Both the position numbers and the translations under genes were made by a program. The notes under the pieces were generated by a model. It was not told the DNA's origin and did no database searches. It saw only the letters and a program-made list of their open reading frames with translations. A stretch of DNA of 64,000 bases from Cytophagales bacterium (GTDB taxonomy: Bacteria; Bacteroidota; Bacteroidia; Cytophagales; Cyclobacteriaceae). Shown here piece after piece: positions 10,609 to 20,907 of this stretch (position 1 is its first letter; every line of letters begins with the position of its first letter). The stretch spans positions 1 through 64,000 of the forward strand of contig JAKSBZ010000326.1 of NCBI GenBank assembly GCA_022360875.1, read 5' to 3'.

Positions 10609-11019
10609 CTAAATGCCGGCGGATTTTTGTTTTATGCTGGCCGCAGCCGCAACCCATCCGGCAGCCGCTGCGTAAGTGCCGCTCAATGTTTGGTCAAATA
10701 TTGTTTTTGTTCCCAGCACAGGAATGTCAACGGTAATGTCAACATTCATCGATATTGTCGAACTGGTCTTGTCGAATTTCGAGATGGTCAGGTGTACATC
10801 GGGACTGCTGTGTACTTTGATGTTTTTATTTCCGTCCACTGCGAAAGGCCCTCCTTGCACATGCCCGTCCTTCACACCGCTGAATTTTGAGTCATAACTC
10901 AATCCAAATTTCCCATCTCCCATGTTTACCAGAGAAATGGTTGTGGTGACGCTTTCCGAAGCAATCCAGCCTCCAAATTTGTGGGTTTCTGTTTTTTTGT
11001 CAATTACTGTGTTGCTCAT
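10609..11019 (-). CDS. Unrecognised 136-residue protein
   Basis: The family is not recognised. The protein has no signal peptide or membrane helix. Residues 20-115 look like alternating beta strands (TTTISLVNMGDGKFGLSYD, VHLTISKFDKTSSTISM, VDITVDIPVLGTKTIF), suggesting a beta-sandwich. The C-terminus is small-residue rich (TYAAAAGWVAAAASIK). The start ATG has CCTAAAGAAC upstream. The gene stands alone, with its own terminator (10561-10588) and a possible TAnnTTTG box at 11168-11175. Codon use resembles the neighbours. A soluble carbohydrate-binding-like or aegerolysin/lectin-like fold is imaginable but only a guess. Confidence 0.75.
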   Translation of the reverse strand: MSNTVIDKKTETHKFGGWIASESVTTTISLVNMGDGKFGLSYDSKFSGVKDGHVQGGPFAVDGNKNIKVHSSPDVHLTISKFDKTSSTISMNVDITVDIPVLGTKTIFDQTLSGTYAAAAGWVAAAASIKQKSAGI

Positions 11020-14367: not shown

Positions 14368-16689
14368 ATGCGGCAAATTTTACTTTTCGCAATATTCCTT
14401 CCTGTACTGCTCAAGGCACAAACAGATAAAAAAGCACCGTTGACAATAGCCGTAGTTTACGATTCTCCGGCAGACAAGAATTCTATTGATTCGCTGTTTT
14501 ATGAAATCAACTTGCTTGTAGGAGACCAGTACCAGCTGAATGCTCCTCTTGCGCACGCTTATTCCATAAACAACTCCGAACAAGTCGCCAAAAACGTTTT
14601 TTCGAAACTGGAGAAAAACCCTGACATATATGCAGTGCTGGCCAAAGGGCCGATTGCCAGCGATGCGATGGCCCGGACAGGAACATACCGCAAGCCATCA
14701 ATTGCCATGAACATACTTAGTCCCGAGCTGCAGGGACTTGGCAACAAAGAACAATCCGGCATTCCCAATTTCACCTATATTTCTGCTTCAAGAGACATCA
14801 GAGACGATCTGAAGGAACTGAAAAAAGTGCATTCCTTCAAAAAGCTGGGAATCATTGTTTTCGGAAAAATACTGGACCAGCTGGGAATTGCCGCAAACAA
14901 AACCATAAACATAGATTCTGTCTCGGACTTTACTCTGTTTAAATACACTTCAAACACTAATGCACTTTGGAGATCTCTTCAGGCAAGACAAATAGATGCG
15001 GCAATCCTTTCCTTGAAAAGCATCCCTAAGAAAAACAGATTTCAGCTAATAGATTTTTTCAACAAAAAAAAATTCCCCTGCTTCAGTTTTTACTATAACG
15101 ATGTGGCGAACGGCGCGCTGGCTACGCTGTCGCCTAAAACGTACGAAACGTTGCTGAACCGCCGGTGTGCGCTGGACATTGAAGCCATTCTAAGCGGAAC
15201 CAGCGCCTCAACCCTAAGCACAACCATCAAAGAACACAAGGAAATGACCATCAACATCCAAACAGCGCATCGTTTGGGTGCGGTGCCTGACTACAGCGTA
15301 CTGATTGCCTCCAACCTGATCAATGATTTCAACACTCAGGGCACGTTAAGCCTGAAAGAGGCGATCCATGAAGCAATCGGCAACAACCCTGATCTGAAAG
15401 CCGGACAAGACGCTGTAGATATCAGCAGAAAAAATTATAAAATTGCCGCCAACGCTCTTTTTCCAAACCTGACTCTTTCAGGCCAGCAAACATTCAACGA
15501 TCCCAGAATAGCCAGCTTCAGCTCGCCGGAGCGCTCTTTTGCCGGTGTCGGACAGCTGAACCAGCTTCTTTACTCAGAAGAGACTATGGCCAACCTCCGA
15601 AGCCAGCAGCTAAAGCTGAAAGCGCAGCAGCAAGAGTTTCAGTCGCTGGCGCTCAACACCGTAATGAGCACCGCCCAAGCTTACCTGAACGTTCTTATTG
15701 CCAGGGCAAACTCGCGCATTCAAAACAGCAACCGCGAACTGACAAAGACCAGCCTCGAGCTTGCCAAACTGCGCGAGGAAGTCGGCTACTCCGGTCTTTC
15801 GGATGTGTACCGATGGGAATCCGAACTTGCGCGGGCCACTAACGAAGCCTTTCGGGCTTATGCCCAAACACAGACCTCAGAAGCGCAACTCAACCAGCTG
15901 CTGAACCGGCCTGTCAATCAAATAATTCGAGTCAATGACATTCATCTTGCAAAAACAAAGTTGCTGCAAGGAGTCTCGGGATTCGAACAGTATATGAAAA
16001 ATCCGTTCAGCGTAGACATTCTGTTGGAATTTCTTCAAGCCATAGCTCTGGAACAGGCCCCCGAACTGGAACAGTTTGAACTGAATAAATCCATCCAGCA
16101 CAGACTTAAAAAATCGAACAGCCGCCAGCGCTATCTTCCCAGCCTGAGTTCTTCAGGGCAGTATCATTACCGTTTTTACCAAGAAGGAACCGATGGAATG
16201 GATTTGCCTGCTGGCAGCACTCCTAAAGGAACCTGGAATATTGGGTTAAACCTGAACTTGCCTGTTTTTCAGGGAGGAAGCATCAGCACAAAAAATCAGC
16301 GATACAAAACCGCGCTGCAGCAGCTGGAAAACCAAAAAACAGCTGCTGAACAGCAAATCCGAACCCAGGTTTACCGCGCAGTTAGGGAACTCAACAGCAA
16401 CTACTTCAACCTGAATCTGAGCAGACAGGCTTCACTGGCGGCTTCCAACGGCTACACATTGGTTCAGGAAGCTTACCAAAAAGGCAAAGCCGACTATGTT
16501 ACTCTGCTGGATGCCCAGAATGCAAAAATACAGGCCGCGCTCAGCGAAGCCAGTGCCGAATACCAATTCCTGCTCAGCTGGTTCTCCCTCGAGCGAAGCA
16601 TCAGCCGCTTCAGTTTGTTGCACACCCGGGAAGAAAACCAGGCTTTCTTCCAGCGTTTTCAGTCTTTTTATCTTGAGAAAAAACCGTGA
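14368..16689 (+). CDS. TolC-family outer-membrane efflux protein with N-terminal periplasmic-binding-like domain
   Basis: 773 residues, far longer than ordinary TolC proteins of about 430-480. Residues 1-18 are a signal peptide (ends LLKAQ). Residues 24-315 look like an alpha/beta periplasmic-binding fold: TIAVVYDSP, YAVLAKGPIASDAM, KLGIIVFGKI, DAAILSLKSIPK, IASNLINDF. This is similar in style to ABC_sub_bind (TrpX-like) proteins. From about residue 325 (TLSLKEAIHEAIGNNPDLKAG) two OEP repeats follow, with long helical stretches, forming the outer-membrane barrel and periplasmic tunnel. It is the first gene of an operon with the adaptor (16695) and the RND pump (17827). The fusion suggests that the channel itself senses or binds a ligand. 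That is inference. Confidence 0.85.
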   Translation: MRQILLFAIFLPVLLKAQTDKKAPLTIAVVYDSPADKNSIDSLFYEINLLVGDQYQLNAPLAHAYSINNSEQVAKNVFSKLEKNPDIYAVLAKGPIASDAMARTGTYRKPSIAMNILSPELQGLGNKEQSGIPNFTYISASRDIRDDLKELKKVHSFKKLGIIVFGKILDQLGIAANKTINIDSVSDFTLFKYTSNTNALWRSLQARQIDAAILSLKSIPKKNRFQLIDFFNKKKFPCFSFYYNDVANGALATLSPKTYETLLNRRCALDIEAILSGTSASTLSTTIKEHKEMTINIQTAHRLGAVPDYSVLIASNLINDFNTQGTLSLKEAIHEAIGNNPDLKAGQDAVDISRKNYKIAANALFPNLTLSGQQTFNDPRIASFSSPERSFAGVGQLNQLLYSEETMANLRSQQLKLKAQQQEFQSLALNTVMSTAQAYLNVLIARANSRIQNSNRELTKTSLELAKLREEVGYSGLSDVYRWESELARATNEAFRAYAQTQTSEAQLNQLLNRPVNQIIRVNDIHLAKTKLLQGVSGFEQYMKNPFSVDILLEFLQAIALEQAPELEQFELNKSIQHRLKKSNSRQRYLPSLSSSGQYHYRFYQEGTDGMDLPAGSTPKGTWNIGLNLNLPVFQGGSISTKNQRYKTALQQLENQKTAAEQQIRTQVYRAVRELNSNYFNLNLSRQASLAASNGYTLVQEAYQKGKADYVTLLDAQNAKIQAALSEASAEYQFLLSWFSLERSISRFSLLHTREENQAFFQRFQSFYLEKKP

Positions 16690-16694
16690 TTTGT

Positions 16695-17816
16695 ATGACC
16701 CGATATGCTTGCTTTTTTTCAAAAAACCTGCTCACAATACTGGGAATCTGCCTGCTCGCAGGGTGCAGCAAAAAACCGAAACCCCGGGAAGAGCCTGTTC
16801 GGCCCGTTAAATATCAAAAACTGGAATATACAAAAACAAATGCTTCCCGCGCATACGTAGGAATCAGCGAAGCCGACAAGGAAGTCAGGCTAAGTTTTCA
16901 GGTAAACGGAGAGATCAGTCAAATTCTGGTAAAAAAGGGCGATCGGGTAACAAAAGGACAGCCCCTGGCCACACTCAATTCCGAAGACTTGCAGCTGAAG
17001 CTCGATCAGGCTGTTTCCTCAGAAAACCGGGCAAAAGTAAAATTCAGAACCGCTTCTTCGGAGCTCAGCCGCATCCGAGGTTTGTACGAAAAAAATTCGG
17101 TGTCGCTCAGTGATTACGAAAAGGCAAAAAGCAGTTACGCAGCCGCAAAATCCAGTTATCAAGAAAGCCTGAAAAATGTTGACCTGGCAAACAGAAAGCT
17201 GGCTTACACAAAACTCAGAGCCCCAATCAGCGGCATTGTTTCTTCCAAAAAAGCGAACATCAATGAATTTGTTCAAGCAGGCACTACTGTTCTGGTCGTT
17301 AGCACCGAGCGCAAAATCCAGGTTCGCGTAGGGCTTCCGAGCAATTTCATCGGCAAAGTGAGCAGCCGCCAGCCGGTACGCATCAGGTTTTCGTCTATCC
17401 CCGGCAAAACTTTTAGTGGAGAAATTCAAGAAATTTCTTACGCCAAAAGCAGCCGTTCCTCCACTTACCCGGTGAAAGTGAGCATAGAAAACCCTGTCAG
17501 CAGCCTGCGACCGGGAATGTCTGCCGAAGTCACATTCTTATCCAAAGCAGGCAGTCTGGAAAAACAGCTTTTTCTCCCTCCGGATGCAGTCTTTATCGAC
17601 CAGTCAGGCAAAAGTTCTGTGTACACTATCGAGCTTGAAAACAAAAACAGCCGCATGGGAATCCTGAAAAAAAAAGAAGTGCAGATCGGAGAACTGACTG
17701 ATCAGGGATTCGTCCTGAAATCGGGAGTCGATGCCGGAGAGCTGATTGCTACAGCCGGAGTTGCAAACCTGAGAGACCAGCTGCCGGTTACACTGTTCAA
17801 AGAAACGAATCCGTAA
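16695..17816 (+). CDS. RND efflux periplasmic adaptor (membrane fusion protein), lipoprotein
   Basis: About 373 residues from the ATG at 16695; a GTG at 16686 overlapping the upstream TGA is an alternative and would imply tight coupling. The N-terminus is a lipoprotein signal with lipobox LLAGC. Then come the first beta-barrel/lipoyl half (GEISQILVKKGDRVTKGQPLATL), an alpha-hairpin (SENRAKVKF to YQESLKNVDLANRKL), the second lipoyl half (LRAPISGIVSSKKANINEFV) and the barrel domain. It links the TolC-like protein to the RND pump in the periplasm. Position and spacing place it in one operon with both. Confidence 0.93.
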   Translation: MTRYACFFSKNLLTILGICLLAGCSKKPKPREEPVRPVKYQKLEYTKTNASRAYVGISEADKEVRLSFQVNGEISQILVKKGDRVTKGQPLATLNSEDLQLKLDQAVSSENRAKVKFRTASSELSRIRGLYEKNSVSLSDYEKAKSSYAAAKSSYQESLKNVDLANRKLAYTKLRAPISGIVSSKKANINEFVQAGTTVLVVSTERKIQVRVGLPSNFIGKVSSRQPVRIRFSSIPGKTFSGEIQEISYAKSSRSSTYPVKVSIENPVSSLRPGMSAEVTFLSKAGSLEKQLFLPPDAVFIDQSGKSSVYTIELENKNSRMGILKKKEVQIGELTDQGFVLKSGVDAGELIATAGVANLRDQLPVTLFKETNP

Positions 17817-17826
17817 ACTGCGAGCT

Positions 17827-20800
17827 ATGAATATCACCCAAACCGCAGTAAAATTCAATCGACCCACAATCGGGATTTTCATTGTCCTGTTCATTCTGGG
17901 AATAAGCAGTTTCAACAGCATGCCCCGGGACGACATGCCTCCGTTCAAAATCCGGTTTATGCAGGTAATCACCCAATTCCCCGGCGCCAGTCCGGAGCGA
18001 ATGGAGCTGCTGGTATCTGACAAAATAGAAAGCGCTGTTCAGGAAGTTGCCGAAGTAAAAAACATCAACAGCGAAAACCGGACAGGAATTTCAATTATCA
18101 GCATTGAGCTCAAAGACGATGTGCAAAACCTGCAGCCCGTCTTTGATAAACTGCGGAGGAAAATCAACCGGATTGAAAGCAATCTTCCGCAAGGCTGCCA
18201 GCCGCCGAGCATCAACGACGAATTCGGAGACACTTTCGGCATTCTGCTCGGGCTTGAATCAGACGGCTACACTTACGCCGAACAAAAGAGTTTCGCCAGC
18301 GACATCCGCGATGAACTGATAAGGCTTGACAACACGGGAAAAGTTACCCTTGCCGGCGTAATCAGTCAAACGATCTATGTTTCATACGACCGGGCACGGC
18401 TGGCCGAAATCGGCCTGACAGCAACCCGGCTCAAACAGATCATAGAGTCCAACAACATTGTTTCCTCAGGCGGATCAATTGTATTAGGAGACCGCCGGAT
18501 AACCTTGGAGCCCAGCGGCGACTACCAATCAATCGAAGATGTCAAACGAACACTGATTTCCAGCGACAAAGGAGAAGTCCTCTACCTAAGTGATGTTGCC
18601 AAAGTGCACAATGGATATGTATTTCCAATAAACCACATGACGAAAATAAGAGGCGTTCAGGGTTTGGTCATCGCGGTTAATCTTAAGGAAGGAGCCAACA
18701 TCACTGATTTGGGCGAGGAAGTTGACGTGCTGGTCCGGCAAACGAACAACACCCTGCCGTATGGCCTCAGTCTCGTTCGGCTGGCTTCACAGGACAGGCG
18801 CGTTAATAAATCAATCAGTGAATTCACGGTAAACCTTGCGGAAAGCATCGCAATCGTCCTGGCGGTTATGCTTATTTTCCTTGGACTCAGAACGGGACTT
18901 GTTGTCGCATCGTTAATCCCGGCAACTATCCTTGTCACTTTTCTGATCATGAAAGGAATCGGGCTGGGTCTGAATCAGGTAACCCTTGCATCGCTAATTA
19001 TAGCGCTGGGCATGTTGGTCGACAACGCCATCGTCGTGTCCGAATCTTACATGGTTAAAACCAAAAACGGAGCTTCTCCCCTTAGCGCCGCTTTTTCCAC
19101 GGCCGACGAGCTGTTCATCCCGCTTCTAACCTCCACACTCACAACCTCAGCCGCTTTTCTGGCTTTTTTTCTGGCACAGTCAGCAATGGGAGAAATCATG
19201 GGAAATATATTTCTAGTAGTTACAGCCGCTTTGCTGAGCTCATGGATTATCTCTCTTACACTGATCCCTATGCTCTGCATCGTTTTTATTAAAAATAATA
19301 AAAAGACCAAAACCAAAACCGCCAAACACAAGCCATCCTTTTTTGACCGTTTGCTCAGTCATTACGACAAACTGCAGCGCTGGGCCCTGTTCAACCCTTA
19401 CAAGCTGATTGGAATCCTTGTCGGAATGTTCTTTCTATCTATGCTGGGGTTTAAAAAACTTCCTTTTTTGTTTTTCCCGGACAGCGACCGAAACCTGATT
19501 TATGTAAAAGTGCAACTGGCTCCGGGCTCTAAACTAGAAAACACAAACCAGGCGATAGGCACAATCGAACATTATCTGCGAGACAGCCTCTGGGCCGATG
19601 AATACAGAGAAGGCGTTACAAATTTTTCCTCATATCTTGGCCAGGGAGCCCCCAAATACGATTTGGGCTACACGCCGGTCGAAAGCGATCCCAGCTCAGG
19701 TTACATCATCGTAAACACCACCAGCGGAAACATCAACCAATATCTGATTGACCGGCTGAACCGTTTCATATTCAACGCCCTCCCGGCAGTCGAGTCGTTT
19801 CAAGTCTCGCGGCTGAAAGGCGGCGGAGGCTCCGCCGATCCTGTAGCAATTCGAATATCCGGAGAGGATATTCCAACGCTTTTCGGCATAGTAAACCGAA
19901 TGAAGAGCAAATTGCAAAGCATAAAAGGAACCGTTAATGTAGACGATAACTGGGGGTTGAAAGCCAAGAAAGTGCTTGTCAAAATTGATCAGGCAAAAGC
20001 CGACTTAGCAGGCGTGAGCAATTACGATATTGCCGTTTCGTTGCAAACTGCTTTGCTGGGCAAAAGCACAGGAGAATACCGGGAAAACGACAAAGTCATT
20101 CCCATACTGCTTCGGAGCGAAAATTCGGAAAACATTACCATCGACGAGCTGCGGGGGACAAACGTCTATGCCCAGCAAAGCGGAGGCAGCGTGCCCCTGG
20201 ACCAGGTTGCCTCGCTGGAAATCGTGTGGGAGCATCCGAAAATTCTGCGCCGGAACCTGAAAAGAACAATCACCTTAAGCGCGCAGCTAAAGGAAGGAGC
20301 TACAGCCACAGAAGTCATGGCCCAAATGATTCCGGCGCTGAACAAAGACCGGGAAAATTGGCCGCAAAACTACAGCTATTCACTGGGAGGCGAAGCTGAA
20401 GACAGCGCAACAGGCATAGGGTCCATTGCCAAGAATCTGCCCATATCCGCTTTTATTATTTTTCTTCTGTTGCTCATTCAGTTCAACTCGCTGCGCAAAA
20501 CAGCGATTATCGGCTTTACGATTCCTCTGGGGCTCATCGGCTGCGTAGCCGGACTGCTGATTGCCCGTTCCTATTTCGGCTTCTTCGGCTTTTTGGGCGT
20601 TGTCTCACTGGCCGGCGTCATCGTAAACAACGCTATCGTGCTCATAGACCGCATAAAAATCGAACAGGACGAGCTCGGAAAAGATCCTTTCCAGGCGATT
20701 GTAGACGCCGGAAAACAGCGCTTCCGGCCGATTCTGCTGACCACCTTCACCACGGCATTCGGGCTTGTTCCGCTTTGGCTGAACAACGGCATGTGGGTGC

Positions 20801-20907
20801 CTATGGCCGTTAGCATAATTTTCGGACTGCTCTTCGGCACTGTGCTTACACTGGTGTTTGTTCCGGTGCTGTACATGCTCATGTTCAAGATAAGCAGACC
20901 TTCCTAA
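17827..20907 (+). CDS. RND-family efflux pump permease (AcrB/MdtB-like)
   Basis: 1026 residues, typical for the HAE1 family. The N-terminal helix (FNRPTIGIFIVLFILGISSF) is followed by porter-domain motifs (TQFPGASPERMELLVSDKIE). The proton-relay helix has the conserved acid pattern ALGMLVDNAIVVSE, and the second half carries VSLAGVIVNNAIVLIDRI. Twelve membrane helices and two large periplasmic loops can be counted. The pump exports drugs or other amphipathic compounds using the proton gradient. The start lies 10 bp after the adaptor stop. No regulator gene adjoins the operon. Confidence 0.95.
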   Translation: MNITQTAVKFNRPTIGIFIVLFILGISSFNSMPRDDMPPFKIRFMQVITQFPGASPERMELLVSDKIESAVQEVAEVKNINSENRTGISIISIELKDDVQNLQPVFDKLRRKINRIESNLPQGCQPPSINDEFGDTFGILLGLESDGYTYAEQKSFASDIRDELIRLDNTGKVTLAGVISQTIYVSYDRARLAEIGLTATRLKQIIESNNIVSSGGSIVLGDRRITLEPSGDYQSIEDVKRTLISSDKGEVLYLSDVAKVHNGYVFPINHMTKIRGVQGLVIAVNLKEGANITDLGEEVDVLVRQTNNTLPYGLSLVRLASQDRRVNKSISEFTVNLAESIAIVLAVMLIFLGLRTGLVVASLIPATILVTFLIMKGIGLGLNQVTLASLIIALGMLVDNAIVVSESYMVKTKNGASPLSAAFSTADELFIPLLTSTLTTSAAFLAFFLAQSAMGEIMGNIFLVVTAALLSSWIISLTLIPMLCIVFIKNNKKTKTKTAKHKPSFFDRLLSHYDKLQRWALFNPYKLIGILVGMFFLSMLGFKKLPFLFFPDSDRNLIYVKVQLAPGSKLENTNQAIGTIEHYLRDSLWADEYREGVTNFSSYLGQGAPKYDLGYTPVESDPSSGYIIVNTTSGNINQYLIDRLNRFIFNALPAVESFQVSRLKGGGGSADPVAIRISGEDIPTLFGIVNRMKSKLQSIKGTVNVDDNWGLKAKKVLVKIDQAKADLAGVSNYDIAVSLQTALLGKSTGEYRENDKVIPILLRSENSENITIDELRGTNVYAQQSGGSVPLDQVASLEIVWEHPKILRRNLKRTITLSAQLKEGATATEVMAQMIPALNKDRENWPQNYSYSLGGEAEDSATGIGSIAKNLPISAFIIFLLLLIQFNSLRKTAIIGFTIPLGLIGCVAGLLIARSYFGFFGFLGVVSLAGVIVNNAIVLIDRIKIEQDELGKDPFQAIVDAGKQRFRPILLTTFTTAFGLVPLWLNNGMWVPMAVSIIFGLLFGTVLTLVFVPVLYMLMFKISRPS

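Follow-up and report, generated by a model that had tools for sequence, protein, structure and literature searches.

Outer membrane factors (OMFs), the exit ducts of tripartite exporters, are usually viewed as passive tubes that are opened by the adaptor. Periplasmic binding proteins normally deliver their substrate to importers. For the TrpX or ABC_sub_bind family of binding proteins, PMC6816091 lists Phe, Trp and Tyr as the ligands carried by the solved proteins 3LKV, 3LFT and 6HNI, respectively. In E. coli, TolC bears an additional protein, YbjP, which binds to its periplasmic surface in the zone from the equatorial domain to the outer membrane and whose linker follows the N-terminal helix. 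YbjP is reported to be dispensable for efflux under standard conditions, and there is no support for it acting allosterically or in signalling (PMC13082787). Among open-licence papers, no title or abstract opening appears to describe a fusion of a TolC-type OMF with a binding domain.

Such a fusion is encoded in the window, i.e. the whole stretch of 64,000 nucleotides analysed here (contig JAKSBZ010000326.1 of a Cytophagales bacterium). The gene at 14368-16689 (+ strand) is a single open frame of 773 aa, comprising a signal peptide, a TrpX-type fold and an OMF. The first-pass annotation, made from the letters alone, had claimed a binding-like domain of the ABC_sub_bind/TrpX kind ahead of a complete TolC in an RND operon, and this is confirmed by sequence and by predicted structure. 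Both halves belong to known families.

Layout of the fusion gene and its operon

The protein starts with what looks, by eye from the translation, like a type I signal peptide without lipobox (residues 1-17, 14368..14418, + strand). It is followed by the TrpX/ABC_sub_bind-type periplasmic binding fold (residues 23-323, 14434..15336, +), whose end lies a few bases from the 15340 given previously, and by the TolC-type OMF (residues 329-773, 15352..16689, +). Between the profile ends of both halves there are 3 residues in the window protein, 3-7 in 47 of 48 fused proteins and 27 in the remaining one. A lipobox-like motif before the domain is absent from 45 of the 48 fused proteins, two of which (L032, L128) are cut there by a contig end.

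The fusion gene is the first gene of the operon. Its end is overlapped by 4 bases by the gene of an RND periplasmic adaptor of the RND_mfp type (16686..17816, +; TIGR01730 E 9.4e-68; HlyD_D23), which is followed by an RND permease gene (17827..20907, +; PF00873 E 2e-167). The nearest solved relatives of this permease in a phmmer search against the PDB are MexK (558.7 bits) and 6vej (505.7 bits); the latter, which we take to be TriC, bears the PDB title 'probable RND efflux transporter'. Besides adaptor and permease, the neighbours in the window are an M16 peptidase, a UspA-like protein (both assigned by eye) and RadA, and no ABC importer genes were seen among them. A promoter and terminator scan of the operon stayed at chance level. 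An unexplained ORF of 136 aa without NCBIfam match is located at 10609-11019 (-).

Identity of the two halves

The OMF half was readily recognised. OEP (PF02321) matched the window protein in two stretches (E 9.9e-49, 166.1 bits compared to a cut-off of 22), TIGR01844 spans residues 327-745, and Foldseek aligned the model to TolC with E 7.7e-19 and TMt values of 0.71-0.81 in the first six rows. By sequence and model, residues 329-773 are a complete TolC-type OMF. Both matches found in phage records (2/2) cover the OMF part alone.

The N-domain of the window is nearly invisible to family models. The Pfam scan of this domain matched no family; PF04392 has no match to the window protein, and none in the window's genome either. 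The domain alone reached E 1.8e-5 with NCBIfam TrpX, at 24 bits, which does not pass the curated cut-off of 390. Only a family profile settled its identity. A profile of 15 members (the window and 14 relatives belonging to its family of organisms) retrieved 3lft (E 9.8e-11), 3lkv (8.5e-7) and 6hni (2.2e-6) from the PDB, the next rows being two chance matches (0.22, 0.98), and a 30-member profile again found the same three entries. At E up to 1, NCBIfam TrpX was matched by 12 of the 15 members (best 3.2e-14) and PF04392 by nine (best 1e-13). Of seven relatives scanned with PF04392, three pass the cut-off of 25.9 (38.6, 34.9 and 29.5 bits), one reaches 24.1 and three have no match. The E-values from profile scans of fetched regions refer to small local sets.

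The AlphaFold model of residues 23-323 (mean pLDDT 85.7, pTM 0.85) was compared with TrpX-like binding proteins, the check that had been proposed for this domain, and VIA-align gave Z 25.0 to 3lkv, 24.9 to 3lft and 24.5 to 6hni. The open form of the 6hni protein, 6hnj, reached Z 20.3 and the best entry outside the TrpX-type family 16.9. The alignment to the solved binding proteins extends across both lobes (277 residues, Z 25). In the whole-chain model (pLDDT 80.9, pTM 0.57), which does not fix the relative orientation of the domains, Foldseek found 3lkv, 3lft and 6hni at 1.6e-9 to 3.1e-9; a BFVD fold search gave nothing useful. As judged from profiles and model, residues 23-323 are a whole bilobed TrpX-type periplasmic binding fold. 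The N-domains of fused relatives share 19-29% identity with that of the window.

Both Pfam cut-offs (PF04392 and PF02321) are passed by three of the seven relatives scanned, and the combination is therefore visible in databases. The public-record labels examined name one half only, either 'ABC transporter substrate binding protein' or 'TolC family protein', and thereby the annotation hides the fusion.

Occurrence of the fusion

At least 48 fusions, each in a single frame, were found in 42 genomes of two phyla. All counts from genome searches are lower bounds, because part of the candidates per genome was scored (at most 5 in the Bacteroidota search, 7 in the Thermodesulfobacteriota search and 17 in the OMF search described below). 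In the window's family, at least 15 of 98 genomes, counting that of the window, have an N-domain match. Thirteen of these hold 16 fused proteins, one of them cut by a contig end; in G003 a fusion ends, as seen by eye, shortly after the OMF start (L033) and was counted as truncated, not fused. The match in G031 (L015, E 8.4e-4), lying in a 1067-aa frame without OMF, was dropped as a chance match.

In 395 genomes of Bacteroidota, the phylum being judged by named relatives, at least 21 have an N-domain match: the window's own, 18 with fetched regions and two left out (G241 and a fragment in G484). The 18 regions contain 15 fusions, a lone binding protein (L072) and two proteins of 945 aa. One of the latter (L073:5212-8049) combines an ABC permease domain (BPD_transp_2) with two ABC_sub_bind stretches arranged in tandem behind it; the other (L074:6795-9632), also with two ABC_sub_bind stretches, has a similar layout.

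A first scan of named genomes with the window protein revealed no relative. A later one detected Splendidivirga corallicola, a Cyclobacteriaceae MAG and Agaribacillus aureus within the Bacteroidota, and Desulfoluna limicola, with three fusion copies, together with a Desulfoluna MAG outside this phylum. At least 89 of 297 Thermodesulfobacteriota genomes have some N-domain match, the weaker ones mostly in frames of the size of lone binding proteins. From this phylum 20 regions were fetched, 15 with fusions and five with lone binding proteins; three further fusion-sized matches were left out (G676:C4, with two stops, G760:C41, and G490:C116 from the Desulfoluna MAG). The lone N-domain relatives of the Thermodesulfobacteriota (L110-L113, L127) have about 373-418 aa, and four of them have the highest N-profile scores among lone domains. 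One (L112) is directly followed by a CHASE3-PAS histidine kinase. Some lone relatives may be sensory binding proteins.

A third phylum is represented by the plasmid pSULKU01 of Sulfuricurvum kujiense, whose fusion is clear (coverage 99%, E 4e-59) and scores 232 bits with the N-profile and 38.6 bits with PF04392. In Cetobacterium somerae (Fusobacteriota), long TolC proteins of two kinds occur, with weakly recognisable N-parts (28 bits in one kind, no match in the other), and by these sequences the Fusobacteriota are a possible fourth phylum carrying the fusion.

Common history of both halves

Trees were calculated for both halves by quick searches (LG+G4, SH-aLRT only) with 47 of the 48 fused proteins, the cut L032 being left out. 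In the N-domain tree all fused domains and the truncated L033 are split from 11 lone domains and three solved proteins (SH-aLRT 97). In the OMF tree the 47 fused proteins are split from 11 unfused OMFs, eight of which are paralogues from the window's genome (SH-aLRT 99); long unfused branches meet in this tree, and the order of the deep branches within the fused clade is uncertain. Path lengths in the two trees are correlated (Mantel r 0.78, compared to a maximum of 0.21 in 2000 permutations), with N-domain paths being about 1.2 times longer than OMF paths. The trees have 22 of 44 splits in common, compared to at most 2 in 200 permutations.

The OMF part was also searched in the 98 genomes of the window's family. 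The listed matches include 19 proteins, 18 of which are at E <= 1e-100; of these, 16 are fused and two start at a contig end. A complete member of the OMF clade without the domain was not found among the matches listed. The nearest unfused OMF, that of G045 (E 6e-73), was rejected as a clade member, since it is a distant outlier adjoining another exporter type (FUSC-/HlyD-like by eye). The sequence trees of both halves thus show agreeing clades, as expected of one old fusion that stayed intact in at least two phyla.

Partner genes of the exporter

An RND permease gene is present in the same stretch for 41 of the 48 fusions. Seven lack it: four are situated at contig ends (L079, L116, L117, L128), one is unclear (L114) and two have none in the 16 kb covered (L028, L068). 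In most operons the fusion gene comes first; in six Thermodesulfobacteriota loci (L115, L120, L121, L123, L124, L129) it is the last gene. The RND partnership assumed by the first-pass annotation therefore holds as a rule, but it is not absolute: the fusion of S. kujiense is accompanied by a HlyD-type adaptor, an RbbA-like ABC ATPase and an ABC permease, i.e. by an ABC exporter. Judging from this one clear ABC case, it is apparently the duct, and not the RND pump, that the domain goes with.

A TetR-type regulator gene precedes the S. kujiense fusion, and a TetR gene is also located before one of the D. limicola copies. The Sulfuricurvum plasmid also encodes two phospholipases, a few kb upstream of the fusion. 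In three other loci (L026, L029, L061) a DUF6268 gene adjoins the fusion operon.

Accessory genes

A K+-channel-like membrane protein of about 225 aa with the filter T[IVL]G[YF]G is encoded in 14 of 49 loci (the 48 fused ones and the truncated L033), namely in 8 of 32 Bacteroidota loci and 6 of 17 Thermodesulfobacteriota loci, all outside the window (L020, L021, L022, L024, L025, L033, L059, L061, L115, L118, L124, L125, L126, L128). PF07885 matched all five channel-like proteins scanned. Eleven of the channel genes are at most 100 bases away from a core gene on the same strand, placed before, between or after the core genes. The channel family (E <= 1e-15) occurs in at least 42 of the 98 family genomes with 46 matches, six of them linked to a fusion. 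Twelve of the 40 unlinked channel loci were read, and none had OMF, adaptor or RND genes nearby (0/12); a general tie of the channel family to RND operons was accordingly rejected. Beside the unfused G045 OMF, a 141-aa ORF (L169:8248-8673) shows weak similarity to the channel pore, which counts against a strict link between channel and fusion.

Class III nucleotidyl cyclase genes (PF00211) accompany the operon in L021 (3220-4290), L034 (14987-16001) and L059 (12569-13648). Another one (L130:7990-9081) accompanies a lone channel, in a locus with channel and cyclase and without efflux genes.

Lipid transport genes were found near 6 of the 17 Thermodesulfobacteriota loci (L115, L117, L120, L124, L126, L128). 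They comprise MCE genes of the MlaD/PqiB type, PqiA, ABC_trans_aux and YhdP/AsmA. These neighbours were spotted by eye in some loci and then searched by phmmer over 79 loci, without shuffled control; none was found in the 32 Bacteroidota loci. The MlaD genome search covered six genomes picked because such genes are present and hence gives no unbiased rate. The gene neighbourhood hints at a lipid-like cargo. The window stretch 4001-26000, also searched by phmmer, contains none of these genes.

Residues at the TrpX ligand contacts

For the TrpX of S. suis, PMC9382623 gives T108, A127, T129, D152, N233 and Q273 as ligand contacts, the first five being identical in the compared proteins except one. 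With 3lft as the reference, these five positions were scored in aligned sequences (47 fused domains, 11 lone domains, three solved chains), accepting S or T at 129 and D or N at 152. All three solved chains keep all five, and the lone domains keep one to four. The fused domains keep none in 39 of 47 cases, one in seven and two in a single case; in the window protein the residues are P, N, L, A and K. With a tolerance of one column, T108 is found in 1, A127 in 13, T129 in 8, D152 in 4 and N233 in 2 of the 47 fused domains. Since the TrpX contacts are mostly lost, it is, by this alignment, unlikely that the domain grips an amino acid in the TrpX manner, and any ligand is probably not an aromatic amino acid held as in TrpX; the domain may bind a different ligand or none.

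Other positions are held in the fused clade: N296 in all 47 domains, R265, G249 and G94 in 46 each, N134 in 45, D32 in 42, E46 in 40, Y137 in 38 and S130 in 37. R265, D32, E46, Y137 and S130 differ from the residue of 3lft. At the positions of R265, E46 and S130, the same residues are also present in four, six and four of the 11 lone domains, respectively, so that not all of the five are peculiar to the fused clade. The Asn of the late INxxxA motif is found in all 47 fused, 11 lone and three solved domains.

Possible function of the binding domain

By analogy, the N-domain may serve the exit duct of a MexK/TriC-like RND tripartite pump as an integral periplasmic sensor or gate, a reading we prefer and to which we give about an even chance. 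Three binding domains would ring the periplasmic part of the duct in the TolC trimer, at a level above the equatorial ring and below the outer membrane, approximately where YbjP docks in E. coli. Closure of the domain on a small ligand would change the docking of the adaptor or the opening of the duct. This is consistent with the fold match, the retention of the fused unit, the residues held in the fused clade, the ABC exporter case and the YbjP precedent. On the other hand, the lost contacts and the identities of 19-29% would also fit a non-binding domain, and the whole-chain pTM of 0.57 speaks against a firm assignment. The dispensability of YbjP and the missing support for an allosteric role also call for caution in using this analogy.

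A rival explanation is a structural collar, in which the binding fold takes up no ligand and keeps the duct in position relative to the peptidoglycan, outer membrane or adaptor, a role that YbjP may have for TolC. The loss of all five TrpX contacts in 39 of 47 domains would fit such a collar, as would YbjP with its reported dispensability (PMC13082787). Most fused proteins carry no lipobox, so that another anchor could be useful. However, both lobes are kept (277 residues, Z 25), which is more than a collar needs, and several positions are held across two phyla. We regard the collar as a serious rival, though a less likely one than the sensor or gate.

A third explanation starts from the usual role of importer binding proteins: the domain would capture the pump substrate in the periplasm and then release it to the duct, the pump or the adaptor. 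The lipid transport genes near six of the 17 Thermodesulfobacteriota loci fit a hydrophobic substrate in the periplasm. However, the substrate entry sites of RND pumps lie far from the region near the outer membrane where the OMF N-terminus is situated. This distance favours sensing or gating over hand-over, the position of the N-terminus being taken from PMC13082787. The same domain moreover accompanies an ABC exporter in Sulfuricurvum. That the domain hands substrate directly to the pump is therefore less likely than sensing or gating and, as an explanation of the domain, appears unlikely to us; the transfer to the adaptor suggested in the first-pass annotation would be disfavoured by the position of the N-terminus. 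An artefact of gene fusion or assembly, or an N-domain that is merely diverged TolC sequence, is practically negligible as an explanation: nothing was found in its favour, and against it stand 48 single-frame fusions in 42 genomes, further fusions on complete named replicons (D. limicola, the S. kujiense plasmid) and an N-domain with the fold of a binding protein, which differs from that of TolC.

If the domain is a sensor or gate, this kind of duct, which is retained in more than one phylum and occurs with RND as well as ABC exporters, would show that an export machine is able to read a chemical signal at its outer end. The relatives in Sulfuricurvum kujiense DSM 16994, Desulfoluna limicola, Splendidivirga corallicola and Agaribacillus aureus make this idea testable. 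A much wider reading, which we consider rather doubtful, is that the fusions form an old separate class of ligand-gated ducts in at least three, perhaps four phyla. They would sense a periplasmic small molecule, perhaps lipid-like or hydrophobic, and work with RND and ABC exporters, a subset being wired to the K+-channel-like protein and the nucleotidyl cyclase of the same operon. If this were true, export, membrane potential and a second messenger would answer the same signal.

Comparison with known systems

With the TrpX or ABC_sub_bind family (PF04392; SP1069, 3LFT, Trp; VC_1101, 3LKV, Phe; CD0873, 6HNI, Tyr) the N-domain shares the bilobed fold (Z about 25), sequence kinship and the INxxxA Asn. 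In contrast to this family, the domain is covalently joined to an outer membrane duct, has mostly lost the contacts and stays below the curated TrpX cut-off, and no ABC importer genes were seen beside the window fusion. OMFs of the TolC/OpmH type resemble the second half in the two OEP repeats, the TolC fold and the adaptor and RND partners, but here a folded domain of about 300 residues precedes the first OMF helix, and the fused proteins form a clade of their own compared to the 11 unfused OMFs.

TriABC-OpmH and MexJK, presumably the RND systems to which the two nearest permeases belong, are similar in the permease, MexK and 6vej being closest to that of the window. Unlike these systems, the window operon has one adaptor and includes the OMF gene, fused to the binding domain. 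YbjP, the E. coli TolC partner, is comparable as an extra domain that, in the fusion, would likewise sit on the periplasmic face of the duct. Whereas YbjP is, according to PMC13082787, a separate DUF3828 lipoprotein of some Enterobacterales, the domain described here is covalently attached, has a TrpX fold and lacks a lipobox in the window protein.
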